Origin: Bacillus nitratireducens
Lineage (GTDB): Bacteria > Bacillota > Bacilli > Bacillales > Bacillaceae_G
Assembly (NCBI RefSeq): GCF_001884135.1
Contig: NZ_MAOC01000038.1
Span: 1 to 64,000, forward strand
DNA length: 64,000 nucleotides
Reading direction: 5' to 3'
Position numbers and translations under genes: made by a program. Positions 30,681 through 64,000 of this stretch are shown here, in pieces. The notes beneath the pieces are model-generated. The model did no database searches. It was not told where the DNA came from and worked only from the letters and a program-made list of their open reading frames with translations. The first letter of the stretch is position 1. Each line of letters opens with the position of its first letter.

Positions 30681-31005
30681 TTTGTTAGATAAAACTGATA
30701 TTACCTTAGTCAGAACTAATGCTTTGTTAGATAAAGCTGATATCAACTTAGTCAGAACTTACCCTTTGTTAGATAAGGCTGATATCAACTTAGTCAGAAC
30801 TTACCCTTTGTTAGACAAAGCTGATATCAACTTAGTCAGAACTTACCCTTTGTTAGATAGGGCTGATATCAACTTAGTCAGAACTTACCCTTTGTTAGAT
30901 AAAGCTGATATTAACTTAGTCAGAGCTTACGCTTTGTTAGATAAGGCTGATATCAACTTAGTCAGAACTTACCCTTTGTTAGTCAAAGCTGATACCAATA
31001 ATTTC
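30680..31005. repeat. 42-bp tandem repeat array (seven full units and a part)
   Basis: Units start at 30680 and every 42 bp to 30974. Each begins CTTTGTTAGATAAAGCTGAT and continues with ATCAACTTAGTCAGAACTTA. Divergence is low in the inner units and higher at both ends. Because 42 is a multiple of 3, the array is open in one frame (14-aa units such as LLDKADINLVRTYP), but there is no ribosome binding site and the only start is a TTG. I treat it as a non-coding minisatellite. Confidence 0.85.
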
Positions 31006-31207
31006 AAAAATATTCTTAGATTTCTTTTGATCAATCAAACTAATATGTGTATCCATCTAACATAAAAAAATATGGATAGAATGTCGACGAGCTTGTAAGT
31101 ATAAGGGTTTACAGTCGTAGAAAAAGCCGTTAGGTTAAATGTATCATTAATAATCCAAATCATTTTATATTGAAATTTGAATGGGGTTAACTTGAAATAG
31201 GGGTAAA

Positions 31208-46507: not shown

Positions 46508-46530
46508 TTTAAATCCTCCTTAGTTATTAA

Positions 46531-46567
46531 CAAAAAAAGCCTTTTTGAGAAAAAGGCTTTTAAAAAC
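46531..46567 (-). terminator. Main terminator of the EPS operon
   Basis: AAAAGCCTTTTT / AAAAAGGCTTTT hairpin with a T-run on the minus strand, one base after the GT2 stop codon. Confidence 0.92.
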
Positions 46568-47350
46568 TTATTTAACAAAGTGCTTTATAACTCCATTTAG
46601 CGCATAATTTCCAAAACACCAAGCAGATTTTAAAACACTCAATCCTTCAATTTCTCTATATAATTTCCAATTCATTTTAGCCATTTTGAATTTTTTACTA
46701 GAAATAGAGTTTTCAACTTTTCTATATTTAGATAAAACTTCATCTAAGCCATAAGCATAATGACCTTGTCTTAATATTTTCAGCCATGTTGCAGTATCCT
46801 GACGGGTTCTAATATTAGGCATTTGTACTTTCCCTAACTTCTCAATATCCAACATAACTGTTAAACAGCCAATTATTGTGTTTTTTAATAATCCATTATA
46901 GTTAATTTTCTCTGGCACATGTACAACCTTATCAGTGAGCGTACCCTCTTGATTCATAATTTGATAACTAGTAAATGAAAAAGCTATATCATTATTCTGC
47001 ATAAAAGCTAATTGTTTTTCTAGTTTTTCTGGTAGCCATAAATCATCACTATCTAGGAAAGCTACATATCTTCCCTTTGCATGATTAATGCCAGTATTTC
47101 TAGCAATTGCAGCCCCGCTATTGTTTTCTAGTTTTATTATTCTAATCCTTTTATCAATCTCTTCCTGTTTTTCAACTATTTTCATTGTATTGTCAGAAGA
47201 ACAATCATCAATTACAATGATTTCCCATTCTTTATATGTTTGTGCTTTTACAGAATTAATCGTATGTAATATAAATTTTTCTGCATTATAAGTAGGAATG
47301 ATTATTGATATTAGTGAGTTATCAACTATTTCAAATTTATTATTTTCCAT
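46568..47350 (-). CDS. Glycosyltransferase family 2
   Basis: A 260-aa protein. The GT-A fold has ISIIIPTYNAEKFILHTINSV near residue 13, IDDCSSDNT, NTGINHAKGRYVAFLDSDDLW (DxD) near 90 and the ...RTRQDTATWLKIL acidic block near 180. No membrane span. It adds a sugar to the growing repeat unit on the inner face of the membrane. It is the only ordinary glycosyltransferase in the operon. Start follows AGAGGAG. Confidence 0.88.
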   Translation of the reverse strand: MENNKFEIVDNSLISIIIPTYNAEKFILHTINSVKAQTYKEWEIIVIDDCSSDNTMKIVEKQEEIDKRIRIIKLENNSGAAIARNTGINHAKGRYVAFLDSDDLWLPEKLEKQLAFMQNNDIAFSFTSYQIMNQEGTLTDKVVHVPEKINYNGLLKNTIIGCLTVMLDIEKLGKVQMPNIRTRQDTATWLKILRQGHYAYGLDEVLSKYRKVENSISSKKFKMAKMNWKLYREIEGLSVLKSAWCFGNYALNGVIKHFVK

Positions 47351-47409
47351 ATAAATTCTCCTCTAATAAATTCATCAATATTTTTAACACTATACCCTAT
47401 AAATGTATT

Positions 47410-49050
47410 TTAAGCCCTAAAATACTCCTGTAAATAATATAATGTAATCAATCGAAAAGGTACCAACGTTTCTTTAAAACGAACATATGAAGGTTTTGCA
47501 TACTTATAAAAATCTATTCCTGTATACTCTGTTGAAAATTCTATAGACTTATTTAAAACATCTTTTAGTTCATTATCTAGTAACTCGTGGTGCTTCTCAT
47601 ATACCATAGATTTTCCTATTTGTATTTTCCCCTTAGATACTAAATAACTTAAAACAAAAGCGCCTAAAAACAGTTTTCTGACCTTAGGCTGAAGTTTTTT
47701 AGGTATCGGTATATTCGAAGGGAGTTTCTGATCAGGAATCTCAAAAGTTTCAGGAAATAAACTTAATGAGGCTTTTTTATAAAGATATCTATTTTCTCTT
47801 AATTCATATGGTAGTCCATTAAAGAATTTTGCATAATCCTTAGACGCAAATGGTCTAATTATTCTAGATTCCCTCTCTAATGGTGCAAAAATATTAGCTA
47901 TCAAAGAATTTTGTCTGTCTACATTCCTAATATATTCATCTAAATGGCAAGGTAAATTAACCTGACAACAATCTTCAGCTAATTTCTTTACGTCATTAAT
48001 TATTTCTTCTTTTTCTTTTGTATCAATTTGAGCCCAAAGTGTATGACCTTTAAATCTCCTATTTATTACATCCTCTATGGCTTCTTCTTTTGTCATAGAA
48101 AAGTTTTCCGCAATTTTAGTTTGATTTGCGCCAGCAAACTCTCCACCTAAAAATCCATGAATAATATACTTAGGTGAAATTTGTTTTTCTTGCATGACAG
48201 AATATAAATGACAATGCATCGGACTACTTAATCCACCTGTTAATCCAACAACTTCTTCCCCATATTTTTCATAATAACTATTGAGGAGCTCCTCAACATT
48301 TAAGTTTAAATTCAACTCTTCAGCTACTTTTCTCGCTACCGTTATCTCATTAGAATGACTCGGCCCAAATACTAAGCTATTAAATTTAAATCCTTTTCTA
48401 TTAGCAAGACTAGCTAATAGTCTTGAATCATACCCTCCGCTTAAGGGGATTAAGATATCTTCCTCTTGACAATGTAATAGCTCTTCTTCATATTTATCAA
48501 ATAAACTTCCTAATATATCTTTTGCATCCCTTAAATATAACTCTTCATTTTTTTCAGAGTGATTACCATTAAATTGCAATTTGAATACTCTTTCTTTCTT
48601 AACTTCAAATTTTTTTAAGTCAAAAGAAATTTCTTCACCAGCCATACATTTATATACATTCTTAAATAAAGTTCGATTTCTTAACGGATTATCTATTATA
48701 CATTCTTCAAAAAATGCAGTTCGGTCGAGTTCTAGCTTAATATGATTTTTCTGAATTGCTTTTACAAGCTCTATTAAATTATAATCAATTAATATTAGGT
48801 CCATAACCTTATCATAATAATAAAATAAAGGATACTCTCCATACCAACTATTGTTTATTATTATTCTCTGTTTTTTTAAATCATAATTAATAAATTGGAT
48901 ATCCTCACTCTTAAAAAATTTATCAGAAGAAGTTGTATACAATTGTTGACTGTCTATCCTTGATGGAAAAATAAAAAATCTCTCTACATTCTCAATCTTT
49001 AAATTCGTTTTAATTTTACCTCTTTTATATTCAAGTAATATATTTTCCAA
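47410..49050 (-). CDS. Asparagine-synthetase-like amidotransferase in the EPS operon
   Basis: A 546-aa protein. The PP-loop LSGGYDSRLLASL near residue 203 and the ATP-site continuation (FKFNSLVFGPSHSNEITVAR) mark the asparagine synthetase B fold. The N-terminal domain has the fold length but starts MENILLEYKRG, so it has no Cys2 nucleophile for glutaminase activity. Start is a TTG after AGAAGGTG. In P. aeruginosa O-antigen loci WbpS-type homologues amidate uronic acids. Given Ugd nearby, a similar role, or use of free ammonia, is possible. This is inferred. Confidence 0.75.
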   Translation of the reverse strand: MENILLEYKRGKIKTNLKIENVERFFIFPSRIDSQQLYTTSSDKFFKSEDIQFINYDLKKQRIIINNSWYGEYPLFYYYDKVMDLILIDYNLIELVKAIQKNHIKLELDRTAFFEECIIDNPLRNRTLFKNVYKCMAGEEISFDLKKFEVKKERVFKLQFNGNHSEKNEELYLRDAKDILGSLFDKYEEELLHCQEEDILIPLSGGYDSRLLASLANRKGFKFNSLVFGPSHSNEITVARKVAEELNLNLNVEELLNSYYEKYGEEVVGLTGGLSSPMHCHLYSVMQEKQISPKYIIHGFLGGEFAGANQTKIAENFSMTKEEAIEDVINRRFKGHTLWAQIDTKEKEEIINDVKKLAEDCCQVNLPCHLDEYIRNVDRQNSLIANIFAPLERESRIIRPFASKDYAKFFNGLPYELRENRYLYKKASLSLFPETFEIPDQKLPSNIPIPKKLQPKVRKLFLGAFVLSYLVSKGKIQIGKSMVYEKHHELLDNELKDVLNKSIEFSTEYTGIDFYKYAKPSYVRFKETLVPFRLITLYYLQEYFRA

Positions 49051-49117
49051 TCCGGAACACCTTCTCTATAAAAATTATCTACATCTTTGTTATAGACCAT
49101 CTATTCCCCTAAAAATA

Positions 49118-50644
49118 TTAATTTTTCTTAATTTTTGATCGGAGGGTTTTTAATACTAACATAATCTCCTTATTTTTAAATATACAAAGACTGACTATAT
49201 AAAAAGTGAAATATAGAAGCGTTGAGCATATTAAAATGACTATTGGTCCAGACTTTAAAAGCCAACTATTCTCTATTAAATTTTTAACTAGCAAAATATT
49301 CACTATAGAAATTATCAAAATAAATATTAATTTTTTTATTAATGTCCATATCAAACTATAACTCATATATTCTTTATTCTTTGTAAACATATAAACTACC
49401 GTAATTATATTGGCTATAAAAATAGCCCATGGTACACCATATTGATTAAATTCTAAACAAAAGAGCACTGTAAAAGCCATACTCGTTATTAGTAATATAA
49501 CACTTGATATAAACGGCGTTCTTTTATTAGATGTAGCAAAACAAAATCGTAATAATAACTCACGAATCGCTGTCGGATATAGTCCCAATATAAAAATATT
49601 TAAAGATGCTGCCGTTAACAACGTTGCTCGTTCGTCAAAGGCTCCACGTTCAAACAAAACCCTTATTATTTCTTCACTAAAATAGATCACAAAAACAGTT
49701 GAGGGAATTAATACTATTGTTAAGAAACTTATACTATTATTAAGTTGAATTCCAATTTTTTTAAATTCTTTAGATACAAAACTTTTACTGAATAATGTAT
49801 ATAATATCGAAAAAGATGACATCGCTAACAACAAGATAGGTAAACTAGCTATTGTAAAGGCATAATTTAGACTAACTAAAGCTCCTTCTCTAAAATTCCC
49901 TGTCAAAAATCTTGCCAATAACATTGGTATTGTTGGCGCTATACTCGAAAGAATAGCTGGGAAGAAAAAACCCCAAAACCTCCTAACCCCCTGGGATCTC
50001 CACCATTTCTCTCTAACTGTAGTATGCAGTCTAGTTCTCTTTGTTTTTAAAAGAAGATACATTTGAGAAAAACTTGCTACTAATAATCCATAACACAAGT
50101 AGCGTATATCATTAAAATAGGCCCCAAAAATAATAGATACTATAAAAAATACATTAATAAATAAATTAGAAATAGAGGGAAACAAATAACTATTTTCTGC
50201 TTGATGTCTCCCTCTTTCAATGCCATGTATATTAAACATTAATATTGTAGGTAATAATATTAATATCATATATAATAGCAAATCATTCATACTTGAATTT
50301 TGAAATTCACCTATTCCATATACATATAAGATTGATCCAATACCTAATACAATCATCGATACTATACCTAAAAATGATATGCATTTTTTAACTTGTTCAT
50401 AAAACTTTAAAGCCTTTGATTCTGATTCCTCTTTTAAGTTTAGATAAACGGGTATAAAAGATGTTGTAAGCGCCTTTCCAATTGCCGGTAAAACTACAAG
50501 TGGAAGAAAGGAAGCAATAACGAAAGCTTCCATTTCCCTTGATATACCAAAGTACTTAGCTAATAAGGTCTCTCTTAAGAGTCCTAAGATAGCACTAAAT
50601 ACAGAAATCAATAACATAATTAAAGATGTAGACATTAACTTCAT
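49118..50644 (-). CDS. MurJ/MviN-type lipid flippase (Wzx role)
   Basis: A 508-aa protein with 14 hydrophobic segments. MviN family features are LRETLLAKYFGISREMEAFVIASFLP near residue 25, FVIYFSEEIIRVLFERGAFDE near 305 and AIRELLLRFCFATSNKRTPF near 355. Within a capsule operon it probably flips the lipid-linked repeat unit outward, in place of a classical Wzx. Start follows AGAAGG. Confidence 0.85.
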   Translation of the reverse strand: MKLMSTSLIMLLISVFSAILGLLRETLLAKYFGISREMEAFVIASFLPLVVLPAIGKALTTSFIPVYLNLKEESESKALKFYEQVKKCISFLGIVSMIVLGIGSILYVYGIGEFQNSSMNDLLLYMILILLPTILMFNIHGIERGRHQAENSYLFPSISNLFINVFFIVSIIFGAYFNDIRYLCYGLLVASFSQMYLLLKTKRTRLHTTVREKWWRSQGVRRFWGFFFPAILSSIAPTIPMLLARFLTGNFREGALVSLNYAFTIASLPILLLAMSSFSILYTLFSKSFVSKEFKKIGIQLNNSISFLTIVLIPSTVFVIYFSEEIIRVLFERGAFDERATLLTAASLNIFILGLYPTAIRELLLRFCFATSNKRTPFISSVILLITSMAFTVLFCLEFNQYGVPWAIFIANIITVVYMFTKNKEYMSYSLIWTLIKKLIFILIISIVNILLVKNLIENSWLLKSGPIVILICSTLLYFTFYIVSLCIFKNKEIMLVLKTLRSKIKKN

Positions 50645-50669
50645 TCCTGGCCTTCTTTCATTATTTTAT

Positions 50670-52016
50670 CTATTCTTCAATAATCCCAACTATTATCCAT
50701 AATAATGTAGCACAGGAACTAGTTCCCCATAAAAATCCGCCGTCTATCAAATCATGTATAAAAGCACCTATTATAATCGCTAAAGAAATCAATTTAAAAT
50801 GATTATTAAACCAAATATCCTTCTTCATCGTTAGTACATGCTTTATAATGCAAACTAATAACATTATAAAAATTACACTTCCTAATATCCCTACTGTAAC
50901 AATTAAATCTAGGAATAAATTATGTGGATGTGGCCAAGCGGCCCCGTATTTAGAATATATTCCATACTCTTTTAAGACCTCTGGAAATTGATAAAACCCT
51001 ATCCCGTAAAATGGATTATCCAGAAAAATCCTAGTAGCACCCTCCCACAAAACCCATCTTTCTTGTTCTACCAATACATTAACTAGTAATTGCGAAAAAT
51101 TAGTATTAATAATATTAAAACTTAATAGCAGCATAAATATTATACTTGGCAATACTATAAGGAAGACCTTTCTTACATCTATGATTTTATAAAGCAATAT
51201 AATAAATGTAGATATTACGAATGAAATTATAGATCCTGCTGAATCTGTAAATATAAGATTTGCCAGAAGGAGAAGAAAAATAGAAATTTGAAACAAAGCG
51301 CTTTTCATTTTATTTTTTTCTAATAGTAAATTACCTAACAGTATTATTAAACCCATACATAAGTATCCGCCATACCCATTAGTATTATTAAAAAAGGCTG
51401 TAATTCGTCCTGTACCAGTTGAAGAATTTATTACAGATTGAGACCATAACCAAGGAATATTAGTGAATTTTTGTAACAAACCAATAAAGGAAGAAAAAAC
51501 CATCCCTAAAATAAAATAGTTGCATATTGCTTTAATCTCTTTCTTATTAAATTTTATTTGTAATAAAATAAAATAACATAAAAAAACGAGCATATATTGA
51601 AATACTTTTAACAAGCTTTGGAATATAGAATCACTTAGTAAAGAACTCAATATACCCAATAAAGAAAATAGCCACATAACATAGCTGTAACTAGATTGTT
51701 GATACTCTTTTATACCTTTCAACCGTTCCCTATATTTATAAAGTATAGTAAGAATAAAGGCTATTAATACAAGTACTTTAACTGCTTTAGTTATGCCTAT
51801 AGGAATTATATAAATAGATTCCAAAGGAAGCAGTAACCCCAATACCAAAAAGGGATTTCTAAAAAATATAAGTGCAACGATTGGTAAAATACAAAGTAAT
51901 ATAAATATACCGCTCCAAATTATCTGTTGAGATAATAAGCCAACTAAAATAATTAATATAAGATAAGAAGAAAGCCTTAATGTCCTTTCATATTCAGAAA
52001 TAAACATTCTTATCAA
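50670..52016 (-). CDS. Wzy-type polymerase / O-antigen ligase family protein
   Basis: A 448-aa protein with 10-12 hydrophobic segments. The large extracellular loop near residues 320-375 (WVLWEGATRIFLDNPFYGIGFYQFPEV...WPHPHNLFLDLIVTVG) carries the Arg/His pattern of the O-antigen ligase/polymerase family. It probably joins repeat units on the outer face. Start is a TTG at 52016 spaced correctly from AGGAGG; the ATG three codons later is too far away. Confidence 0.83.
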   Translation of the reverse strand: MIRMFISEYERTLRLSSYLILIILVGLLSQQIIWSGIFILLCILPIVALIFFRNPFLVLGLLLPLESIYIIPIGITKAVKVLVLIAFILTILYKYRERLKGIKEYQQSSYSYVMWLFSLLGILSSLLSDSIFQSLLKVFQYMLVFLCYFILLQIKFNKKEIKAICNYFILGMVFSSFIGLLQKFTNIPWLWSQSVINSSTGTGRITAFFNNTNGYGGYLCMGLIILLGNLLLEKNKMKSALFQISIFLLLLANLIFTDSAGSIISFVISTFIILLYKIIDVRKVFLIVLPSIIFMLLLSFNIINTNFSQLLVNVLVEQERWVLWEGATRIFLDNPFYGIGFYQFPEVLKEYGIYSKYGAAWPHPHNLFLDLIVTVGILGSVIFIMLLVCIIKHVLTMKKDIWFNNHFKLISLAIIIGAFIHDLIDGGFLWGTSSCATLLWIIVGIIEE

Positions 52017-52033
52017 TTATATTACCTCCTTTT

Positions 52034-52693
52034 TTACCTAGCTCCATCACCAGTAACTACAACTTTAACAGTTTTTGTAATAATCTTTAGATCTAACAAA
52101 ATACTAGCATGGTTAATATAGTAAATGTCCAATTCCAACTTTTCTTTTGGTGTAATTTCATATCCACCATTTACTTGTGCCCATCCTGTCAATCCAGGTT
52201 TGACTTCTAATCTTTTCTTAAATCCAGGTATATTTTTTTCGAATTGCTCCGTAAATATCGGTCTTTCTGGTCTCGGTCCTACAAGAGACATATCACCTTT
52301 TAAAATATTAAATAATTGCGGTAGTTCATCAATTCTTGTTTTACGAATAAATAATCCTATTTTTGTAACACGTGGATCATTCTTTTCTGCCCATTTTGCC
52401 CCATTTTTTTCTGCATCATTACGCATGGAGCGTAATTTAATAACTTTAAATCTCTTCCCATTCAATCCTAATCTTTCTTGTAGGTAAAAAGGAGACCCCG
52501 GGGATTCTAAAAAAATAAGTATACTAAATATCAATATAACGGGCATCAATGCTATTAATCCTACTAAAGAAAACATAACATCTAATAAATACTTAACTCC
52601 TAAATAGATTTTAGATTGATTACTTTCCACTTGAATAGTTTGAGAATCAGATGCAATTCGATACTCCCTCGCTACATTTTCACTAGTCTTCAT
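52034..52693 (-). CDS. Initiating sugar transferase (polyprenol-phosphate phosphoglycosyltransferase)
   Basis: A 219-aa monotopic enzyme. A hydrophobic re-entrant helix ([21 protein letters not shown]) is followed by [29 protein letters not shown], the catalytic ...[25 protein letters not shown] near 135-160 and [11 protein letters not shown] near 185. It loads the first sugar phosphate onto undecaprenyl phosphate and so starts each repeat unit. It is the short form without the large N-terminal membrane part of WbaP or WcaJ. Confidence 0.92.
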
Positions 52694-52711
52694 ATTCCCT
52701 CTCCCCTACAA

Positions 52712-53590
52712 TTATTTGATTGCTTCTTTATGTACTAGTTCATCCATATATTCCATGAGCTGTTCTTTTAATTCTTTATGTTGCAATGCCATTTCAATTG
52801 TCGTCTTAATAAATCCAAACTTCTCTCCAACATCATAACGTTTACCTTCAAAGTCATATGCAAACACACGCTGAATTTCATTTAAACGTTGAATCGCATC
52901 TGTCAACTGAATCTCTCCACCAGCACCTGTTTGTTGGTCTTCAAGGAACATGAAGATTTCTGGTGTTAATACGTAACGTCCCATAATTGCCAAATTCGAT
53001 GGTGCTGTACCGTCTGCTGGCTTCTCTACAAATTGACGTACTTGATAACAACGATCATTTTGTTCAATTGGATCAATAATGCCGTAACGATGCGTCTCAT
53101 TTTCTGGCACTGTTTGCACACCGATAACGGAAGATCGTGTAACTTCATACTGGTTCATTAATTGGCGTAAACATGGTGTTTCAGCTTGTACAATATCATC
53201 ACCAAGTAATACTGCAAATGGTTCATTTCCAATAAATTTGCGTGCACACCATACTGCATGACCTAATCCTTTTGGCTCTTTTTGCCTTATGTAATGAATG
53301 TTAATTTTTGAAGACGCTTGTACTTTTTCAAGCATTTCATATTTCCCTTTTTCTAAAAGGTTTTGTTCTAGCTCAAAAGAATGATCAAAATGATCTTCAA
53401 TTGCACGTTTTCCTTTTCCAGTAACGATAATAATATCTTCAATTCCAGATTCAATTGCTTCCTCTATAATGTACTGAATCGTAGGTTTATCAACGATAGG
53501 TAACATCTCTTTCGGCATTGCTTTCGTAGCTGGTAAAAACCTTGTCCCCAGTCCAGCAGCTGGAATAATTGCTTTCCTTACTTTTTTCAA
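52712..53590 (-). CDS. galU: UTP-glucose-1-phosphate uridylyltransferase
   Basis: A 292-aa enzyme that makes UDP-glucose from UTP and glucose-1-phosphate. The nucleotide-binding start [36 protein letters not shown] is complete. Also visible are [11 protein letters not shown] near 130 and the FVEKPADG block. The frame opens at an ATG at 53608, but GGGGG lies 7 nt before the TTG at 53590, which also gives the family N-terminus, so TTG is chosen. It supplies UDP-glucose to both Ugd and GalE. It follows the EAR-like RNA and its terminator. Confidence 0.93.
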
Positions 53591-53636
53591 ATCAGTACCC
53601 CCAAACATTTTTTCCGCATATATGTATGTAGCGATA

Positions 53637-53692
53637 ACAAAAACCCTATCTATAGAGTCATATTTATAACTCCATAGGTAGAGTTTCTATCA
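53637..53692 (-). terminator. Terminator after the EAR-like RNA
   Basis: On the minus strand AAACTCTACCTAT pairs with ATAGATAGGGTTT and an inner GAGT / ACTC, followed by TTTGTT. It lies inside the operon, before galU, so the operon must have a way to read through it. Confidence 0.75.
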
Positions 53693-53700
53693 TAAATAAA

Positions 53701-53810
53701 TTATGGGCATCTAACCCTACCTCACATCATGCTTTTGACAACAAACGCGTCTAAGGTAGAAATTTACTCTACCCACAGCATAGCCGAGTGTCTCCATTGA
53801 TATTGGTTAG
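53701..53810 (-). ncRNA. EAR-like (eps-associated) antiterminator RNA candidate
   Basis: A non-coding stretch between the phosphatase and galU genes, rich in stems on the minus strand: GGTAGAG / TTCTACC, and GGTAGGGTTAGATGCCCA near its end. It starts with AATGGAGACACTCGGC. B. subtilis carries the EAR element within its eps operon, between the first genes, where it makes RNA polymerase ignore later terminators. The place, length (about 110 nt) and downstream terminator here fit that role. I cannot align it to the EAR consensus from memory, so the match is by position and structure. Confidence 0.55.
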
Positions 53811-53835
53811 GAGGCATCACCAAGTTGTTTTCTCT

Positions 53836-54603
53836 TTAAAAGAGACCGAATATTTTTTTTCGTCTTATTTTCTCAGGCTCTTCTCGATAAATCATTTTTC
53901 CACTTATTAGTTCATACGTATTTTCCTTGAAGTTGTACAATGTAGAACTCCCAAATGTTTTCTCTACTGTTTCATACGCAGCTTGCAAGTGAAAGGACCG
54001 CGTTGTTGTGTTATGAGCATCTGATGATATGACATGTGTTAAATGATGCTCAATAAGTTGCAATGAAAACTTCTTGATTTTCTTTCCGAACTTCCCTGTC
54101 ACGCTTCCTGCGGTAATTTGTGTTAGTGCCCCTTGATTGACGAACTTATATAACACATCGGGGCGTTCAATAATTTCCATATTCCGTTCTGGATGAACAA
54201 TAACCGGCGTGATCCCTTTCACACGTAATTCATATAACATTTTTTCTGCATAGCGCGGGACATGGTTTGCTGGAAATTCAATTAATATATATTTATCGGT
54301 ACGATTCAGTGTAACAATACGTCCCAAATCATAGTCCTCTAATAACTCTCCGTACAACCTGATTTCTTGACCAGGTAAAATGGTTAAATTGATATCCTCT
54401 TCTTTTAATCTTTCATTTAACTGCTTTACCTGATGAAGAATGCTTTCTGCTAGATTCATATAAACCCCATTTTGGTGATGAGGAGTAGCAACGATTGTAT
54501 GAATTCCTTCTTCGCATGCTGCCTTTGCCATTGCAATGCTGTCTTCGATTGATTGTGCTCCATCATCGACATTAGGCAAGATATGACAATGTACATCAAT
54601 CAT
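53836..54603 (-). CDS. PHP-type tyrosine-protein phosphatase (CpsB/YwqE)
   Basis: A 255-aa metal-dependent phosphatase. The PHP motifs are MIDVHCHILPNVDDGA at the N-terminus, VATPHHQNG near 40, PVIVHPERNMEI near 137 and VISSDAHNT near 197. It removes phosphate from the Tyr cluster of the neighbouring kinase, and so cycles chain-length control. The place, third after the adaptor and the kinase, is typical for Gram-positive capsule operons. Confidence 0.93.
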   Translation of the reverse strand: MIDVHCHILPNVDDGAQSIEDSIAMAKAACEEGIHTIVATPHHQNGVYMNLAESILHQVKQLNERLKEEDINLTILPGQEIRLYGELLEDYDLGRIVTLNRTDKYILIEFPANHVPRYAEKMLYELRVKGITPVIVHPERNMEIIERPDVLYKFVNQGALTQITAGSVTGKFGKKIKKFSLQLIEHHLTHVISSDAHNTTTRSFHLQAAYETVEKTFGSSTLYNFKENTYELISGKMIYREEPEKIRRKKIFGLF

Positions 54604-54686
54604 TCTATTTCATCCCCTCTCCACATATTCTTCACATACTGAATATAAGAAGAAAAGATGAATGTTCACCTTTCCTTCTTTTGCAT

Positions 54687-55376
54687 TTAGTTAGAACCGT
54701 AATAGTAATATTCGGATCCATTTTGTTCTTTATCGTTTAAGACAACGCCAAGTAATGTACCTTTTGCGCTATCTAATGATTGTTTTGCTTTAAGCGCCGC
54801 CTCTTTTTCTGTTGCACCACTTCGAATAACAAGTACAGAAGCATCACATTGATTTGCCATAATTTGTGCATCTGTAACCGGTAAGATTGGTGATGTGTCA
54901 AAAATGACAAGGTCATACGTGCCATAAGCTTCTGAAAGTAAATCTTTCATCGAGCTTGCACCCAGTAATTCCGCTGGATTTGGTGGGATTGGACCACATG
55001 GTAAAAATGTTAAATTACCGATTTTCGTTTGTGTCACACATGTTTCTAGTGTTTTACTACGTGTTAATACGTTTGTTAAGCCAAATATATTATCCACTTG
55101 CATCATTTGATGTAATGCTGGTCTACGTAAGTCTGCATCGATAAGTAATACTTTCTTACCTTGTTGTGCGAAAACAATTGCAATATTAGCAGCCGTTGTT
55201 GTCTTTCCTTCACTTTGATTCGCAGATGTTACGATAAGAGAACGAATCTTCTTATCAACAGATGCAAATTCAATATTTGTTCGTATATTTCGGTATTGCT
55301 CTGACACAGATGATTTTGGTTGTTCATATGCAATCAGCTGACGGCGAGCACGTAATATTTTTTTCTTAAGAACCAA
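54687..55376 (-). CDS. BY-type tyrosine kinase (CpsD/YwqD)
   Basis: A 229-aa protein with Walker A SANQSEGKTTTAANIA near 52, Walker A' LLIDADLRRP near 80 and Walker B LVIFDTSP near 157. A C-terminal Tyr cluster EYYYYGSN is autophosphorylated. It needs the membrane adaptor encoded just before it. Start is a TTG at 55376 after AGGGGGG, overlapping the adaptor gene by 11 bp. Confidence 0.93.
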   Translation of the reverse strand: MVLKKKILRARRQLIAYEQPKSSVSEQYRNIRTNIEFASVDKKIRSLIVTSANQSEGKTTTAANIAIVFAQQGKKVLLIDADLRRPALHQMMQVDNIFGLTNVLTRSKTLETCVTQTKIGNLTFLPCGPIPPNPAELLGASSMKDLLSEAYGTYDLVIFDTSPILPVTDAQIMANQCDASVLVIRSGATEKEAALKAKQSLDSAKGTLLGVVLNDKEQNGSEYYYYGSN

Positions 55377-56106
55377 TTGTATGCCCCCCTACTCTCTTCG
55401 TTGCTAATAAACTACCGCTCTTTGTGCCATCTTCCTCCATATGAGAAACGACGCCAAGAACTGGTACACCAAGTTGTTTTTCAATATCTTCTTCTTTTTT
55501 CATCGTGTTATCTAAGTACTCTAGTAAGAATGCAATTCCAACAGAAGTCATTAATCCAACAACAAATGCAATTGCTATATTTAACTTTTTATTTGGTTTG
55601 ATTGGTGACTGACCTTCTGCTACTTCTGCTTTTGATAAAATCGTTACATTATCAATACTCATAATTTTTGCAATTTCACTTTTGAATATTTCCGCTGTTG
55701 TATTTGCGATATCACGAGCTAGTTTTACATCTTTATCTTGAACTGTAACTGCTATTACTTGTGAATCTTTCTCATTTTCTACATTAATTTTTCCATTTAA
55801 CTCTTGAGTAGACATGCCTAACTTTAATTCACTCTTCACCTTATCCAAAATTACAGGGCTTTTTACAATGATCTTATATGTATTAGTTAATTGCACATTG
55901 GTTTGCACTTCGTTATACTGAATGATTTTCTCATCTTGTTTCTTTTGGTTAACAAGAATTTGCGTCGAAGTCTGATAAATCGGCGTTATAAAGTAGAAAC
56001 TTACAATCGCGCTTACAAGTGCTGCACCAATCGTAATTACAAGGATCATAACTAATCGTTTTCTTAAAATAGCAAATAACTCTTTCAAACTTATTGTTTC
56101 TTCCAT
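55366..56106 (-). CDS. Wzz/CpsC-type chain-length regulator and kinase adaptor
   Basis: A 246-aa protein. One span lies near the N-terminus (about 18-40), an extracellular Wzz domain (YQTSTQILVNQKK...) between, and a second span near 175-197, followed by a short cytosolic tail that activates the kinase. It is the first gene of the EPS operon. Start follows CTGGAGGAAG. Confidence 0.92.
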   Translation of the reverse strand: MEETISLKELFAILRKRLVMILVITIGAALVSAIVSFYFITPIYQTSTQILVNQKKQDEKIIQYNEVQTNVQLTNTYKIIVKSPVILDKVKSELKLGMSTQELNGKINVENEKDSQVIAVTVQDKDVKLARDIANTTAEIFKSEIAKIMSIDNVTILSKAEVAEGQSPIKPNKKLNIAIAFVVGLMTSVGIAFLLEYLDNTMKKEEDIEKQLGVPVLGVVSHMEEDGTKSGSLLATKRVGGHTIGS

Positions 56107-56640
56107 GCCTTCCTCCAGCTTTCAATAATTTGTTATAAAAACTTCCGAAAATAAATAATTTGTCAGGTTTTAAGCTGACAACAAAAATCTGGTATCTAGT
56201 CCTAAAGTTGTTTAGCGATAGATAACTATTTAACATATTACATAACTTACATTAGTATAGCAAGAATGGTTGAGAAAATTGTTGGAGAAATTGACAAATA
56301 CTATACTACCGAATCTGACGAATTTCGACACAGTTTTTAATGTATAGATTTTCATTTGCTATATACTGTCGATATATGGGGATTATTAGTATTACTAGTG
56401 AATATACCATTGATTGATCTGTGTATTTATACTATCTTATTTATAAAAATCTTACCATTGTTGATTTTTATTTTGTTTTTTCTTAATATTTTGATATCTT
56501 TTTCAGACTTTAGTTGATAAACTTTTTTCGAAAGTCCCCTATTTTTTTAATCAAACGTTTGTTTAAAAGTAAGAGAACTTACCTATCGACAAATCCTCTT
56601 ACCTTTCGTCCATTTCTTCATAATTCGCTTCAATAACAAT
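56107..56640. other. Upstream region of the EPS operon
   Basis: About 530 bp, very AT-rich, without a supportable gene. The part around 56275-56380 has several TATA-like and ACTATAC/GTATAG sequences and may hold regulator sites. No operator can be named. Confidence 0.4.
56254..56262 (-). promoter_or_regulatory. Candidate promoter of the EPS operon
   Basis: On the minus strand TGCTATACT is an extended -10 element. The -35 region has no good match. It lies about 150 bp upstream of the first gene. Confidence 0.45.
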
Positions 56641-56678
56641 AAAAAAGATGAATGACTATACTCTCTTCATTCATCTTC
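56641..56678 (-). terminator. Terminator after fabZ
   Basis: AGATGAATGA / TCATTCATCT hairpin followed by a T-rich tail on the minus strand. Confidence 0.88.
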
Positions 56679-56704
56679 CAACGTAAAGTTATGTTAACAA
56701 ATCT

Positions 56705-57139
56705 TTATTCTTTCTTATCACCAATTGCAAATGTGATTTCAGCTTCACAAGCGATTTCACCATTTACAGTTGCTACTGCTTTTCCTTTTCCAATCGGTCC
56801 ACGGACACGTGTCATTTCGACTTCTAGGCGAAGTTGATCACCTGGGCGAACTTGACGTTTGAAGCGGCAGTTATCAATGCCAGCAAAGAATGCAAGGCGA
56901 CCGCGATTTTCTTCCTTCTTCAGTACCGCAACAGCACCCACCTGCGCTAATGCTTCTACAATTAGAACACCTGGCATCACAGGATAATCTGGAAAGTGTC
57001 CATTAAAGTATTCCTCATTTGCCGTTACATTTTTAATCCCAACCGCACGCTTTCCTTCTTCTACTTCTAAAATTTGATCGACTAGTAGAAATGGATAACG
57101 ATGTGGAATAATTTCTTTAATCTGTTGAATATCTAGCAT
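56705..57139 (-). CDS. fabZ: 3-hydroxyacyl-ACP dehydratase FabZ
   Basis: A 144-aa enzyme that removes water from 3-hydroxyacyl-ACP in fatty acid elongation. The hot-dog fold motif [17 protein letters not shown] has the catalytic His near residue 13. [23 protein letters not shown] holds the catalytic Glu near 63. Monocistronic, with its own terminator. Start follows AAGGAGAG. Confidence 0.95.
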
Positions 57140-58012: not shown

Positions 58013-58064
58013 AAAAGCAGCGAGACCTCTAGTCCTAAAGACAAGGGGTCTCGCTGCTTTTTGT
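58013..58064. terminator. Strong bidirectional terminator at the end of the lasso cluster
   Basis: AAAAAGCAGCGAGACC / GGTCTCGCTGCTTTTT, a 16-bp stem with a 20-nt loop and A/T-rich flanks. It is the last strong terminator downstream of the ABC exporter gene. Confidence 0.92.
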
Positions 58065-58335: not shown

Positions 58336-60138
58336 TTAAATGTTTACCTTAGCCTGTTGTCCAAGTAGACTACTAAATAAACCACCTTCATCTTTTGCCA
58401 GTTGTGTGAAACTACCGTGTTGAATAATTTGTCCTTGATCCATTACAATTACTTGGTCAGCTTTACGTATAGTAGATAGTCTATGTGCAATGACAATAAT
58501 TGTCATGCTTCCTTTCAATCTTTCCAATGCTTCTTGTATTTTTGCTTCATTTTCAGCATCTAATGCACTTGTTGCCTCATCTAATACTAAAATAGAAGGC
58601 CTTCGAAGTATTGCTCTAGCCAGAACAAGACGTTGTCGTTCTCCCCCTGAAAGTTTGACTCCCCTATCGCCAATCAGTGTATCCAATCCTTGCGAGAGCC
58701 TGCTAACAAACTCAGCGGAAGCAGAAAATTCTAAAGCTTCCCAAAGCTGCTCCTCACTTGCATTTGGTTCAACCATTCTCAAATTGTCTCTTATACTGGC
58801 ATTGAATAGAAATGGATCTTGAGGAACATAGCTAATAGATTTCCTCAATGATAATAGGTCCTTACTTGTCAACGGTTTGTTATCTATTAATAACTGACCG
58901 CTCTCCGGCTGCATAAGTCCCATTATGATATCAATTAATGTACTCTTTCCAGCACCGGAACGCCCAGAGATAGCTGTCATACAATTTGCAGGAATACACA
59001 AATTAATATCTTTAAGTGAGTACACAGCATTTTCTTTATTGTAGCGGAAAGAGATATTTTGACACTCAATAGATTGTTCTATCTGCATAGGATTTATACA
59101 ATCATAATCCTGCTCTATATCTTGCAATTCTATACTTTTCTTACACTCTTCCTGTAATTGCAACAAATCTTTAAAAGCGGGAAGATTCGCTGCAATTTGT
59201 TCCATGTTTGATTGTATACCTGCAAATCGTGGCCACAAACGAGAAAATATAAGAATAATTAATAATAATTGCTCTGTTTTCGTCTGAAACAGCTGAACAG
59301 ATAGAAAGATAAGAATAGCAATGAAAACAGCTGATGCAATTTTATAAAAGAGTTGAGAATTATTTCTCACCTTAATATATGCAAACTGTTCACGTTCCAC
59401 ATCTTCTACCCAATTACGTAACCACATATAACGAGATCGTTCTAGTGTATTGCTCTTAATATCCTTAATTCCATTAAAATGATCAGTTATACCTGCAAGA
59501 TACGCTTTTGAATTCTCTGAGGTTCGACCACCTAATCTTTTTGATTTTTTAATAAATCTTCGTGAAAGAAAGGCAAGTACCACAGCGCAACATAGTACAA
59601 AAATTGTTATATCTGCCGCTAACCAAAAAGCGAAACCAATCTGTATAAATGTAAACATTAAAGAAGTGAGCAACTGTAAAAATAAATTAGTGCCTGCGCT
59701 AACACGCCCTAATTCCGTTGTCAAAGAATTGATAAGATCTGATTTTCTCTTTTTCACAAAGAAACTCCAGTTGGCCTGCAACAATCCACGATAAGTTTCC
59801 AATCTCAAATGATTAATAAAACGTATCTGGATTTTCGCATTACGAACTGTTATATTCCTTTGCAAAAGCGCTTGTCCCACGACCAATATAATATATATTC
59901 CTAATACAAGTGGTAATCCTAAAGTAGTTGGAATCTCACCTAGGAATCCAAGAACCCCTGAAAGAGGACTTGTCTGTTCATTCATCTTCGCAATACCGCT
60001 AATACTTATCATAGGAATTAATAATAAAATGCCGATTCCTTCTACGAGACTGACCAATACCATTCCCATGAGATTAACAATGAGAATGTTTCCAGTAAAA
60101 GAGTATAACCGCTTTGTAAAATATAAAATATTTCTCAT
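58336..60138 (-). CDS. Lasso-peptide ABC exporter (fused membrane and ATPase domains)
   Basis: A 600-aa half-transporter. Six membrane spans (to about 320) are followed by an ATPase with Walker A SGRSGAGKSTLID near 395, Q-loop YVPQDPFLF, signature LSGGERQRLVLARAIL near 497, Walker B LVLDEATSALD and switch His AHRLST. Such genes end lasso clusters (the D gene) and give export and self-immunity. No peptidase domain is fused, in line with a separate leader peptidase. The ATG at 60138 is chosen over a GTG at 60144, which is too close to AAGGAG. Confidence 0.88.
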   Translation of the reverse strand: MRNILYFTKRLYSFTGNILIVNLMGMVLVSLVEGIGILLLIPMISISGIAKMNEQTSPLSGVLGFLGEIPTTLGLPLVLGIYIILVVGQALLQRNITVRNAKIQIRFINHLRLETYRGLLQANWSFFVKKRKSDLINSLTTELGRVSAGTNLFLQLLTSLMFTFIQIGFAFWLAADITIFVLCCAVVLAFLSRRFIKKSKRLGGRTSENSKAYLAGITDHFNGIKDIKSNTLERSRYMWLRNWVEDVEREQFAYIKVRNNSQLFYKIASAVFIAILIFLSVQLFQTKTEQLLLIILIFSRLWPRFAGIQSNMEQIAANLPAFKDLLQLQEECKKSIELQDIEQDYDCINPMQIEQSIECQNISFRYNKENAVYSLKDINLCIPANCMTAISGRSGAGKSTLIDIIMGLMQPESGQLLIDNKPLTSKDLLSLRKSISYVPQDPFLFNASIRDNLRMVEPNASEEQLWEALEFSASAEFVSRLSQGLDTLIGDRGVKLSGGERQRLVLARAILRRPSILVLDEATSALDAENEAKIQEALERLKGSMTIIVIAHRLSTIRKADQVIVMDQGQIIQHGSFTQLAKDEGGLFSSLLGQQAKVNI

Positions 60139-60140
60139 TT

Positions 60141-61328
60141 TCACTTCTCCTTACGGTACCTCATTTCCCTCCAAATCCATAAAACCGGCCGCAAAGGGAA
60201 ATATAAAACATGCAGTTGTTTTGGCAGTGGTAAAGTTTCCACATCCTGAGGATAAGGATACAACCAACTAAGATGAAACAGTAGCTTTTGAGAGCTTGTC
60301 TTTAACAAATATAAATATCGCTCATGATATTTTGAAACTTCTTCCGGGACAGGATCTGTATGCAAGTTAATCATATTTTCCAAGTAATATATAGCAAGCT
60401 GCGCTAATTGCGTTACCTTTCTCCCTGACATTAATACTTTTGCCTCTTCCTCTATTATAAGAGTATCTAAAAGCTCAGAAGATAAAATAAGCGCCTGACC
60501 TACCAGTTGTTTACATCCATATCTCCCCAACATAACAGTGAGTTCTTCCCAATCTATTTCTTGCCTTACCATACGGTCAATGTCCGTTAACCATCGAAGC
60601 CTGGACCAACCATGCCTAGTTCCATGAGTCACAAGAAACATAAACAAATCCTCTCTACCTAAAAAATAGACAGGATAATTTGTGACAGGACTCGTCCTCT
60701 TTCGCCCCCATAACTCATCGAAGTGTGGTTCCTTTCCCGGTCCTGGGTGTAGTCGCCAATGAATCTCCAATTTCACCTTACTTATCGGATGCGTGTAAGT
60801 TGTATGGTGGCGTCTCCACTTCCATTCATTCATAACCGTCGGAAAATCATCCTCTTTGACATAACCATTCTTTACAAGTAATTCGTTCACTTTTCCAAGA
60901 TCATCTATAGGAACAAGGGCATCCAGATCCCCTGATGTTCGAAGGGAAACATCTCCATATAGGTCTGCGCCAAGAATAGGGCCCTTCAAAAATAGAAGTT
61001 GAAGTTGGTTTTCAGCAAATAATTTACTTACTTTTCCCATTTCTCCACTTAAATGAAGCATATGGAATGTATTCCTTTTAAAATATGTACTTAATACTTG
61101 CACAACATTTGATGGAACTAACTGTTTATCAATAGATTTCATTTTTGGGTAAATGAACGCGTACATACGATGATGCAGCGCCAGTTTCAAAAATTTGTTC
61201 CAATCAATATTTATGAACCAGTCTCCCGGGATTTCTTGTATCTCTTTATCTTCCTTCTTTATAATTTCAAGTAACAATTTTAGTTCTTTAGGTAAATGAC
61301 TCAAATCAAGATTACAACCGGTATACAT
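60141..61328 (-). CDS. Nucleotidyltransferase-fold enzyme of the lasso cluster
   Basis: A 395-aa protein. The core LLFLKGPILGADLYGDVSLRTSGDLDALVPIDDL (GDxxxRxxxDLD) near residues 110-145 is the metal-binding motif of the NTP_transf_5 group. HYTHP-like HTTYTHPISKVKLEIHWRLHP near 190 is also typical. Homologues occur in paeninodin-like clusters, and in pseudomycoidin biosynthesis such an enzyme (PsmN) is reported, to my memory, to modify the phosphorylated tail further. The same role is inferred here. Start ATG follows AAGGAG. It ends 2 bp before the exporter start. Confidence 0.82.
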   Translation of the reverse strand: MYTGCNLDLSHLPKELKLLLEIIKKEDKEIQEIPGDWFINIDWNKFLKLALHHRMYAFIYPKMKSIDKQLVPSNVVQVLSTYFKRNTFHMLHLSGEMGKVSKLFAENQLQLLFLKGPILGADLYGDVSLRTSGDLDALVPIDDLGKVNELLVKNGYVKEDDFPTVMNEWKWRRHHTTYTHPISKVKLEIHWRLHPGPGKEPHFDELWGRKRTSPVTNYPVYFLGREDLFMFLVTHGTRHGWSRLRWLTDIDRMVRQEIDWEELTVMLGRYGCKQLVGQALILSSELLDTLIIEEEAKVLMSGRKVTQLAQLAIYYLENMINLHTDPVPEEVSKYHERYLYLLKTSSQKLLFHLSWLYPYPQDVETLPLPKQLHVLYFPLRPVLWIWREMRYRKEK

Positions 61329-61350
61329 CTCATTCTCCTTCAAGATTTTT

Positions 61351-61803
61351 TTACCCTATCCTTTTTGCAAATTTACCAACAACGGTAAATCTCTTCATTT
61401 CTTCTACGCCAGTAATATAAAAGGGCCCGCTACGTAACCACGCATGGGCAATCATATTTCCCGTCTCATCTTTCGCGGTCCCTAAGTAAAGGGTACTTTC
61501 AATTTGACGCTTCTCCAACATTTTCATTGCAGCGATAGCTTTAACGAGACACTGGCTTTCCCAAAATGTATAACGGCTCATCATATGCACTGCTTGAGAA
61601 ATTTTCCTTAACGTAATCTTTTCCGATTCATCATAGCTTAAAGACGTTTCTGCCATATGAATTCCTAATATAGGAGCAGCTTTAGAAAACGGTATACTTT
61701 TCAGAATACGAGCCCAGCCTAAATAAAAGAAAGCTTCTATAAGTAATAATTTTGTTCCCATATCGAACGACAAGAAAGCTTTGGCTTTATTTATGATATT
61801 CAT
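61351..61803 (-). CDS. Lasso leader peptidase (B2, transglutaminase-like)
   Basis: A 150-aa protein. The cysteine-protease core has Cys in TFWESQCLVKAIAAMKML near residue 85 and His in MIAHAWLRSGPFYITG near 120. This is the lasso B2 family, which cuts the leader from the precursor after the RRE protein presents it. The N-terminal helix and FYLGWARILKSIPF segment also match. Start follows TTAGGAG. It lies 45 bp after the B1 gene. Confidence 0.9.
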   Translation of the reverse strand: MNIINKAKAFLSFDMGTKLLLIEAFFYLGWARILKSIPFSKAAPILGIHMAETSLSYDESEKITLRKISQAVHMMSRYTFWESQCLVKAIAAMKMLEKRQIESTLYLGTAKDETGNMIAHAWLRSGPFYITGVEEMKRFTVVGKFAKRIG

Positions 61804-61848
61804 CGATCCTACTCCTAATCTATTAAATCTGGAACGTTCAATTAAAAA

Positions 61849-62148
61849 TCAAAGTTTTTCATCAACCGAAATTAACCCTTCTGCATACAAATGATTTAAG
61901 AAAGAGAGTACTTGTTCCTTACATTCTGCCTCTTCAATCATATATCGAGACAATAATATATCGATCACTTGATTGACAGATATTAATTCATTAATTAAAC
62001 TCCAAATTTCACCACCTATACCTCCTAAGTTATAGTATTTCCCATTATGGATGCTCATCATCACTTTCTCCCCATCCATATCGCTCACTACATTTTCCTG
62101 ACCTTGTACAACAAAACTGTGTAATGAAATTGTTTGTTTACTACTCAT
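61849..62148 (-). CDS. Lasso leader-recognition protein (B1, PqqD-like RRE)
   Basis: A 99-aa PqqD-like protein: GEKVMMSIHNGKYYNLGGIGGEIWSLI near 27-52 is the beta-hairpin and helix that bind the leader peptide. It works with the B2 peptidase as a split B protein, the usual form in Bacillales. Its ATG overlaps the kinase stop codon, and AGGAGG lies within the kinase gene. Confidence 0.92.
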   Translation of the reverse strand: MSSKQTISLHSFVVQGQENVVSDMDGEKVMMSIHNGKYYNLGGIGGEIWSLINELISVNQVIDILLSRYMIEEAECKEQVLSFLNHLYAEGLISVDEKL

Positions 62149-63077
62149 TATTTTTCCTCCTCTTTTAAAGACTCTAGAATTTTGGATACTAAATCATGTG
62201 CCGTAAACTTTGAAATAGGACGTCTCAATTGACACATATCTATTTTGTTGACGATATTTGTTGAATGCATAAAATGCCATTCCATCATCCCCAATCGTGG
62301 GATTAATGAATTCCTATATGTATGACGTAGCAATGTGCGTAGTCTCTCCAGTCCTTCAATCTGCTGAAGTTCAACATCCCCATTTTCTACTTTCACTAAT
62401 TCGAATACACCTGCCAATGGTAATGGTTCCTCGAAAAAGTTAGCTGTAACGGGGACAGCATATTTAGTTTCCCTTTCAAATAATGGCTGATAATGCGCTG
62501 TCTCCATTCCAAACTGATCAAGACTCTCTTTCCATAACTTTTGCTGCGGGTAAGATGGTGTAACAAAAGGAGTATTATCCTCAGAAAGAGACACAGCAAT
62601 TACATCATCACTTAAAAGCTTATAGCCTTTGCTTAAAAGGGCTGATGCAAGAGTTGATTTTCCAGCTCCTGATCTTCCTACAAAAGCATACGCCTTTCCA
62701 TTGATGGCTATTACACTTCCATGCAGAGGGAGTATTTTTCTCTGCATCAACAATGCCCCCATACAAGTCCCAAGAATATAAAGCCGAATCTTATCTTGAT
62801 CAGACCCTTTCATAGGTGAAACAATGATTTTTTCTCCATTTTTAATACAAAACGTAGCAGTTTCGGGGATTTGAAACATAATTAATTCTTCTTCAACTAC
62901 AAACACTGACTTCGGAGAAGATAACTCTCCCCATAATTGGGACAAATCTGCAGTTTCTATTTTTACGTCTACTTCATTTTCGTAATTACTTACTTGAGGC
63001 AATTCCGGCAGGGGAATCTCACTTAATAGGGCTAATCCGAAGGCTTTGTAAATCTCTTTCTTTACAGTATGTATCAT
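62148..63077 (-). CDS. Lasso-peptide kinase (HPr kinase-like)
   Basis: A 309-aa protein. The HPr kinase-like C-terminal half has Walker A VGRSGAGKSTLASALL near 137 and LLSDDVIAV near 158. In paeninodin and related clusters this enzyme phosphorylates the C-terminal Ser of the precursor. The precursor here ends in Ser, which fits. The frame opens at a GTG (63086), but GGAG lies 8 nt before the ATG at 63077. It follows the precursor gene after an attenuator hairpin. Confidence 0.88.
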   Translation of the reverse strand: MIHTVKKEIYKAFGLALLSEIPLPELPQVSNYENEVDVKIETADLSQLWGELSSPKSVFVVEEELIMFQIPETATFCIKNGEKIIVSPMKGSDQDKIRLYILGTCMGALLMQRKILPLHGSVIAINGKAYAFVGRSGAGKSTLASALLSKGYKLLSDDVIAVSLSEDNTPFVTPSYPQQKLWKESLDQFGMETAHYQPLFERETKYAVPVTANFFEEPLPLAGVFELVKVENGDVELQQIEGLERLRTLLRHTYRNSLIPRLGMMEWHFMHSTNIVNKIDMCQLRRPISKFTAHDLVSKILESLKEEEK

Positions 63078-63107
63078 CTTTCTCACTCCAAATAGTTGAA
63101 AAATTGA

Positions 63108-63148
63108 TTAAAAAAAACCCTTATACCGTAATTAAACTATATAAGGGC
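63108..63148 (-). terminator. Attenuator between lasso precursor and kinase genes
   Basis: CCCTTATA / TATAAGGG stem followed by T8 on the minus strand, 37 bp after the precursor stop. Partial termination here would give more precursor mRNA than enzyme mRNA. Confidence 0.82.
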
Positions 63149-63184
63149 TGTAAAGCATATAAATCTCATTTAAATATTAGTGCA

Positions 63185-63316
63185 TTAGCTGTGGTGAAGA
63201 GCGCCTTGCTCATCCTCATCTTCAAAAACTTGGTCAACAAGTCTCTTTCCAGGTCCAGCCATTGTCATGTTGATATCAAGTACTTCTAATACTGGTGATT
63301 GCCATTCTTGTTTCAT
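63185..63316 (-). CDS. Lasso-peptide precursor (paeninodin-like)
   Basis: A 43-aa peptide with GGGGGTG upstream of the ATG. The 19-aa leader MKQEWQSPVLEVLDINMTM has an aromatic-xxP motif (WQSP) for the RRE protein, with Leu and Ile after it, and Thr at -2, which lasso peptidases need. The 24-aa core begins AGPGKRLVD, so the N-terminal Ala could form a nine-residue ring with Asp9. The tail is acidic (FEDEDE) and ends HHS, giving the kinase a terminal Ser. Neighbours are cyclase, kinase, B1 and B2. The mature product is predicted, not shown. Confidence 0.92.
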   Translation of the reverse strand: MKQEWQSPVLEVLDINMTMAGPGKRLVDQVFEDEDEQGALHHS

Positions 63317-63330
63317 AATTTCACCCCCTT

Positions 63331-64000
63331 TCAAATATATTTTTTGATAAATCGATAAACAATAAGACTACGCATTAAAATTCTAAAATCTGGATCAAAC
63401 ACGTATTCTACTCGTGGTTCTCCTTGAATTTTCAAAATCGCGCTCTTAATAATCTCCATATTAAAAAAGTTAGAGGCCACTGGGTCTTTACTAAGCTGCT
63501 GAAGTTCCTCGATAAACATTTTCCATGAAGGAATCATGCGATGAACCACATCAGCTGCCTGTATTCCCCGCACACGCTGATTTAACCTTACTTTGTCAGG
63601 AAGAAATCCTTTTGTGGACCTCCGGACAAGTGCACGATTTAAGCCATTTTGAACAAATTGTTCGAGTGGTAACGATAAACAGAATCGAATTACCCGTAAG
63701 TCATTCGTTGGATCATGCCCTTGTAAACCATAACGCAAGGAGAGCTTTGTTCCACTTGTACCCGTTGTATTCCACAAGTTTAGCTGTTCAAAATGTTTCT
63801 GCCTTATTTCATATATATTTGGGATAGAGGCCCCTGTTACTTTCACACCATGTTCTTCAAGCTTTCTAAATACATCAGTACGTTTGGCAAGTTCTGGACT
63901 AACTAACGTTGGCAGTTCGTATTGCTGTTCTGAGGAAAACATGTTTTTTATCGATGGGAATGCTTTCTCCCCTACAACTTTCAGTATTCTCGATTTTTTG
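63331..64000 (-). CDS. Lasso cyclase (asparagine synthetase-like), partial
   Basis: About 222 C-terminal residues; the gene runs off the right edge, so its start and PP-loop are not seen. The part present, with GTKLSLRYGLQGHDPTNDLRVIRFCLSLPLEQFVQNGLNRALVRR and GFLPDKVRLNQRVRGIQAAD, is the C-terminal region of lasso C proteins, where AsnB enzymes carry the PFLDxxxxxF type block. It forms the macrolactam with ATP. It ends 14 bp before the precursor gene, so in this cluster the cyclase is read first. Confidence 0.9.
   Translation of the reverse strand, partial: KKSRILKVVGEKAFPSIKNMFSSEQQYELPTLVSPELAKRTDVFRKLEEHGVKVTGASIPNIYEIRQKHFEQLNLWNTTGTSGTKLSLRYGLQGHDPTNDLRVIRFCLSLPLEQFVQNGLNRALVRRSTKGFLPDKVRLNQRVRGIQAADVVHRMIPSWKMFIEELQQLSKDPVASNFFNMEIIKSAILKIQGEPRVEYVFDPDFRILMRSLIVYRFIKKYI

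Follow-up and report, generated by a model that had tools for sequence, protein, structure and literature searches.

The lasso-peptide cluster and its identity

The window discussed here is a stretch of 64,000 nucleotides from Bacillus nitratireducens (contig NZ_MAOC01000038.1, positions 1 to 64,000). At one end of it, seven genes lie on the minus strand in the order C-A-K-B1-B2-N-D, from 63999 down to 58336, and make up a paeninodin-type lasso-peptide cluster. Between the precursor gene A and the kinase gene K lies a conserved hairpin, with which most of this text is concerned. All seven genes are found where a first-pass annotation, made from the DNA letters, had placed a lasso cluster on one strand. 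Its gene calls (HPr-kinase-like, PqqD-like, transglutaminase-like, nucleotidyltransferase and ATP-binding cassette (ABC) exporter) agree with profile searches, K being just under the cut-off.

The precursor A (63185..63316) has the predicted length of 43 aa, with the leader MKQEWQSPVLEVLDINMTM and the 24-residue core AGPGKRLVDQVFEDEDEQGALHHS. It scores 61.5 bits against the NCBIfam model NF033524, ‘paeninodin family lasso peptide’ (cut-off 27). The leader holds the WxxP motif as WQSP and also MTM, with Thr at -2, while the core ends in HHS, that is, in a C-terminal Ser. Upstream, the last 222 codons of the lasso cyclase C (63331..63999; PF00733 Asn_synthase) run off the window edge in an open frame. 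These 222 aa align with positions 477-643 of the 668 in NF033535 at 44 bits, where the cut-off of 525 is that of the full-length model and C is cut by the edge.

The HPr-kinase-like protein K, for the C-terminal Ser, is encoded at 62148..63086, though its start may be the ATG at 63077 instead of the GTG at 63086. It reaches 32.4 bits against the HPr-kinase C-terminal domain PF07475, slightly below the Pfam cut-off of 33.3, and its NCBIfam matches are likewise below cut-off. Its residues H122, G137, G140, G142, K143, S144, D160 and D161 are conserved in at least 97% of 58 sequences, window included. K thus keeps the residues that the passages of the BsfK paper list for BsfK itself and for lasso kinases already known. 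The PqqD-like leader-binding protein B1, a RiPP (ribosomally synthesised and post-translationally modified peptide) recognition element (RRE), lies at 61849..62148 (NF033536, 127.5 bits, cut-off 80), and the transglutaminase-like leader peptidase B2 at 61351..61803 (NF033537, 114 bits, cut-off 33). The two are separate genes, both over their family cut-offs, and C85 and H120 of B2 are conserved in 58 sequences. Next comes N, a nucleotidyltransferase-fold protein of the PsmN type (60141..61343; PF14907, 195 bits, cut-off 31); across 55 sequences, its D139 and D141 are conserved. The ABC exporter D (58336..60144) matches PF00005 and PF00664 above cut-off.

The core is identical, letter for letter, to the pseudomycoidin core printed in a table of a 2025 review (PMC12427821), and a full-text search of 5.39 million open papers for the core letters gave this single match. 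The cluster is therefore the published pseudomycoidin cluster and already known. The first-pass annotation had guessed at pseudomycoidin itself or a close relative; compared with the core of paeninodin, AGPGTSTPDAFQPDPDEDVHYDS, the core is alike in its AGPG start. As given in passages of a review, pseudomycoidin comes from the psm cluster of Bacillus pseudomycoides DSM 12442 (Zyubko 2019). Published knock-outs, as reviewed there, make PsmK the kinase of the last Ser, the role that had been proposed for K. The further group that had been linked to the nucleotidyltransferase corresponds, in the same review, to one or two hexoses on the tail, which depend on PsmN. The reviewed account leaves undecided whether PsmN transfers the sugar itself or an E. 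coli host enzyme does so after nucleotidylation. The account of PsmK and PsmN in the passages of a 2021 review is largely the same. The gene set, the core identity and the conserved residues come from the present analysis, and the chemistry from the literature by way of reviews.

The assembly line would run as follows. B1 would bind the WxxP leader of the precursor, and K would phosphorylate the C-terminal Ser, possibly more than once. B2 would then remove the leader by cutting after Met-Thr-Met, and C would link Ala1 with Asp9 around the tail; ring closure at Asp9 would fit the printed class II core. N would be required for the addition of one or two hexoses on the tail, and D would export the product. 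The masses computed for the product of the window are 2616.24 (MH+), 2696.21 with phosphate, and 2858.26 with phosphate and hexose.

A close relative of pseudomycoidin, with the same core and enzymes that differ in their tail chemistry, has also been considered. The closest kinase found in the species-genome collection is 62% identical to K, so that search gave no near copy for comparison. However, all 24 residues of the core are identical, and the K and N genes are present as described for psm, which makes such a relative highly improbable. Two points weigh against the identification: C is cut by the window edge, so that for C the cluster is seen in part, and the identity with psm is one of the core, the enzymes being matched to the Psm proteins by description. 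As a whole, the best explanation, with a probability of roughly 93%, is that the cluster is psm, or else an allele that shares its core, with the enzyme roles above and the hairpin as a presumed boundary between messages.

When the species-genome collection was searched for relatives of K, 70 loci were obtained, with the 62% match at the top. With one plasmid locus added, matches to C, K, B1, B2, N and D follow in this order, on one strand and within 9 kb, in 49 of 71. A C-terminal Ser is present in 83 of 84 distinct precursor-like open reading frames (ORFs) from kinase-picked and motif-picked loci, window included, and the single one without it looks spurious. Some loci depart from the common layout. 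L009 has a tandem C-A-C-A with two different cores, followed by one K. At six loci (L004, L006, L009, L025, L047 and L052), the best cyclase match stops about 2.6 kb before K. The plasmid locus, L071 on pB2.3 of Priestia aryabhattai, is a paeninodin-type cluster with galU and two SinI-like genes close by; no N match lies within it, an N relative is found elsewhere on the same plasmid, and its kinase carries the annotation aldolase. Ten K relatives of 33-35% identity (L055-L059, L062, L064-L067) come from Legionellaceae and other gammaproteobacterial genome bins. Near eight of these ten lie matches that resemble B2 or the exporter; a cyclase match to the partial query is seen in none of the ten.

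A conserved hairpin behind the precursor gene

The hairpin, absent from the first-pass annotation, lies 3' of the precursor gene at 63117..63148 on the minus strand, as GCCCTTATAT-N12-GTATAAGGGT, with the stem GCCCUUAUAC-loop-GUAUAAGGGC. It was recognised by folding and by the recurrence of its motif. A T-tract, TTTTTTTAAT, follows immediately (63107..63116). The A-K gap of the window folds at -14.4 kcal/mol (z -5.1), and none of 200 shuffles was equally good. Rfam has no family at the hairpin and gave one chance-level match elsewhere (E 0.85); a simple terminator scan did not pick the hairpin up.

In relatives, the stem letters are GCCCTTATAC, loop, GTATAAGGGC. When up to two and up to three mismatches were allowed in the two arms, this fuzzy element was found in 38 of 55 A-K gaps, that of the window among them, but in just 7 of 2750 gaps after shuffling. 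The 55 gaps omit kinase loci that lack a first-pattern precursor (L006, L025, L047, L052, L055-L067); wider patterns later recovered precursors in L006, L025, L047 and L052, each with the element. The stem columns hold 0.94-2.0 bits of information and the columns outside 0.04-0.68 bits, while four T-rich columns right behind the stem reach 0.79-1.31 bits. Loop length ranges between 5 and 12 bases, with an average likeness of 35% among loops of equal length. Because the flanks are near random and the loops variable while the stem letters recur, the gap has been free to change, the stem excepted.

The motif also leads back to lasso precursors when it is sought alone. Two collections were scanned: 397 genomes from the order to which Bacillus sp. 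AFS055030 belongs (here Bacillales) and 392 from that of Paenibacillus foliorum (here Paenibacillales). In a blind scan of the Bacillales, the strict motif occurred in 50 of 397 genomes and a reversed control pattern in 3. Of 53 sites, 40 are located behind a WxxP precursor, at a distance of at most 260 bases (20 of 30 sites given as loci, 14 of 16 fetched later and 6 of 7 seen before), and at least 8 of these 40 had been obtained before through the kinase search. One further site, L188, follows a lasso cyclase with an unrecognised precursor and is therefore left out of the 40. In the Paenibacillales, the strict motif was present in 57 of 392 genomes and the control pattern in 5. The locus count covers the first 30 loci, the other 27 genomes standing outside it; 29 of the 30 lie behind a WxxP precursor, 6 of these already being in the kinase set.

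Precursors were also picked in the Paenibacillales by the family model, which found one in 200 of 373 genomes. The 30 best-scoring loci, partly near-identical, gave 32 distinct precursor-like ORFs, and the fuzzy element accompanies 23 of them. Many precursors escape the strict pattern, either through variation of the element or through its absence. Among the 39 genomes behind 40 kinase loci, a strict match was obtained in 25, which is no prevalence figure, as these genomes were mostly chosen with element-bearing loci. All but four of the matched sites there carry the letters of a precursor site known before; no precursor precedes the remaining four, which belong to three genomes. In a phage collection, none of 80 motif loci (of 85 stretches) had a lasso-type precursor upstream, so in a large collection the motif occurs also without lasso genes.

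The position of the element was also noted in several unusual arrangements. At L009, it stands behind the first precursor, although the following gene is the second cyclase. At L031 (L165), the next same-strand ORF after it encodes 303 aa and looks LytR-CpsA-Psr-like by eye. In the tandem sets of L039, with three precursors, and L260, with two, it is behind the last one.

What the hairpin may do

On the sequence evidence, the hairpin may be taken as an RNA boundary between the precursor and enzyme messages, and its mode of action is proposed as follows. Where a U-tract follows, transcription would partially terminate at the hairpin; where it is absent, the hairpin would act through processing or through protection of the 3' end. 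The substrate would thus be produced in excess over the enzymes. A more specific proposal is that precursors of the paeninodin family carry a cis RNA element, whose stem letters, CCCUUAUA(C) in the 5' arm, have been conserved in both Bacillales and Paenibacillales beyond what pairing asks for. This would imply a partner, for instance a processing nuclease or a protein that binds RNA, which reads them and sets the border between the two messages. The proposal, element and partner together, is put forward tentatively, at a little less than even odds.

An ordinary intrinsic terminator, with a stem that is alike through shared cluster ancestry only, is a rival reading of the same data. A T-tract, defined as five or more T among the 8 bases 3' of the stem, follows 27 of 38 kinase-picked stems, that of the window being TTTTTTT, and this count favours plain termination somewhat. 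In the wider set, which includes motif-picked copies, 36 of 63 have such a tract. There is also a precedent in microcin C, in which a terminator stands between the precursor and enzyme genes. Many copies, including that of the window, are therefore able to act as terminators. However, the T-tract is absent in 11 of 38 kinase-picked and 27 of 63 wider-set copies, and this remainder is hard to explain as terminators. The stem columns are nearly fixed, yet neither the flanks nor the loops are. A further comparison is provided by D-side hairpins with T-rich tails, present at 31 of 38 loci: they share 27% of their stem letters, or 43% at the best of 9 offsets, as a rough control in which many D hairpins are weak. 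The A hairpin shares 84%, and 24 A-gap hairpins found without the motif share 73%. Plain termination with common descent is thus a serious candidate that falls a little short of an even chance.

It may also be argued that the inverted repeat is a DNA operator for a regulator, with no RNA structure at all. Many copies are indeed perfect palindromes, matched on both strands. Yet a loop of 5 to 12 bases would cost the half-sites their phasing, and the element sits behind precursor genes. The departures within the stem also speak for RNA. Among 380 stem pairs in the 38 copies, 342 are Watson-Crick, 28 are G-U, 3 are A-C on the sense strand and 7 are of other kinds. With G-U so much commoner than A-C, it would be the sense RNA that is kept; this is an indication only, since the related sequences are not independent and the count has no test value. 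The wider set gives 41 G-U against 4 A-C, part of it having been chosen by a pattern that favours such wobbles. An operator is, on balance, unlikely. Pairing of the 5' arm with the precursor Shine-Dalgarno sequence was ruled out; types AAGGAGG and AAGGGGG occur both with and without the hairpin.

Returning to the RNA boundary, several observations tell against it. The element is lacking in 17 of 55 A-K gaps and in 9 of the 32 precursor-like ORFs that the family model selected, one of the nine looking spurious. Twelve of the 53 Bacillales sites are behind neither a precursor nor a cyclase. The element was not found at the tandem precursor pairs L254 and L255, and an A-C stem mismatch occurs in five near-identical copies of the family-model set (L247, L250-L253).

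A thin literature search found no description of the A-K hairpin, which Zyubko 2019 and Zhu 2016 (J Biol Chem) may mention; the passages of PMC13381572, PMC5067487, PMC6092494, PMC9576775 and PMC11705953 contain no mention of it. The cluster itself adds nothing beyond the published one, and the hairpin looks new. It can serve as a marker by which lasso precursors of the paeninodin family are found from DNA alone. It is also a likely control point for the ratio of substrate to enzyme, to be kept or removed knowingly when such a cluster is transferred to another host. Its near-fixed stem letters would point to a partner that reads the RNA.

Surroundings and comparison with known systems

A strong hairpin with a T-rich tail (58015..58059, minus strand, -29.7 kcal/mol) lies 3' of D and is likely the operon terminator. 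Downstream, on the same strand, a capsule or exopolysaccharide locus extends over 45185-57139. It includes fabZ, Wzz, an AAA_31-type ATPase (tyrosine-kinase-like by eye), CpsB, a sugar transferase, a Wzy-like protein, a MurJ-like flippase, a glycosyltransferase and a UDP-sugar dehydrogenase, together with a protein at 52712-53608 that was judged GalU-like by eye alone. This locus may be the source of the hexose donor for N. Such a setting is not unusual, because paeninodins and linear polyphosphorylated peptides (LPPs) frequently co-localise with capsule loci, according to passages of a 2026 paper (PMC13381572). Within the polysaccharide locus, a 546-aa protein (47410-49050, minus strand) matches asparagine synthase at 21.5 bits, barely over the cut-off of 21. 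Elsewhere in the window, the ORF at 30682-31065 (plus strand) is built of a repeated unit like LDKADINLVRTYPL and is probably a tandem repeat, not a gene. The segment 28417-28647 is 80-89% identical to Priestia and Peribacillus plasmids among the matches listed (10 of 17), some of the counterparts being annotated as IS6 family transposase.

Among known systems, the stem-loops of Clostridium operons offer one parallel for the hairpin. In selective RNA processing and stabilisation, as the abstract openings of PMC8219983 and PMC10311766 describe it, stem-loops at the 3' ends of selected genes set the stoichiometry of the operon. Those stem-loops differ in being unlinked to one RiPP family, and these abstract openings make no mention of conservation of the stem sequence. 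In microcin C, a hairpin terminator between mccA and mccB, that is, between the precursor and enzyme genes, gives a short precursor transcript. It belongs to another peptide family, however, and the passages of PMC6495379 name no family-wide fixed stem sequence.

With regard to the cluster, the LPP systems described in passages of PMC13381572 have in common with it an HprK-like kinase, a discrete RRE, an NTP transferase, an exporter and, often, capsule loci nearby. The LPP core genes come without a cyclase and B2, whereas the window has a partial cyclase and B2, which sets it apart from the LPPs. The LPP leader has Y where the leader of the window has W, and LPPs have a SipW-like peptidase, a gene that was not searched for in the window. 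The paeninodin cluster pade of Paenibacillus dendritiformis C454 shows the order C-A-K-B1-B2-D as well; as quoted, this order names no N, which the cluster of the window has. Paeninodin also shares the C-terminal Ser, in addition to the AGPG start (PMC12427821). The nearest system is psm of DSM 12442, from which no difference was found with the core compared by sequence and the enzymes by description: the 24-residue core is identical, and the kinase and nucleotidyltransferase genes are as the passages on psm describe them.

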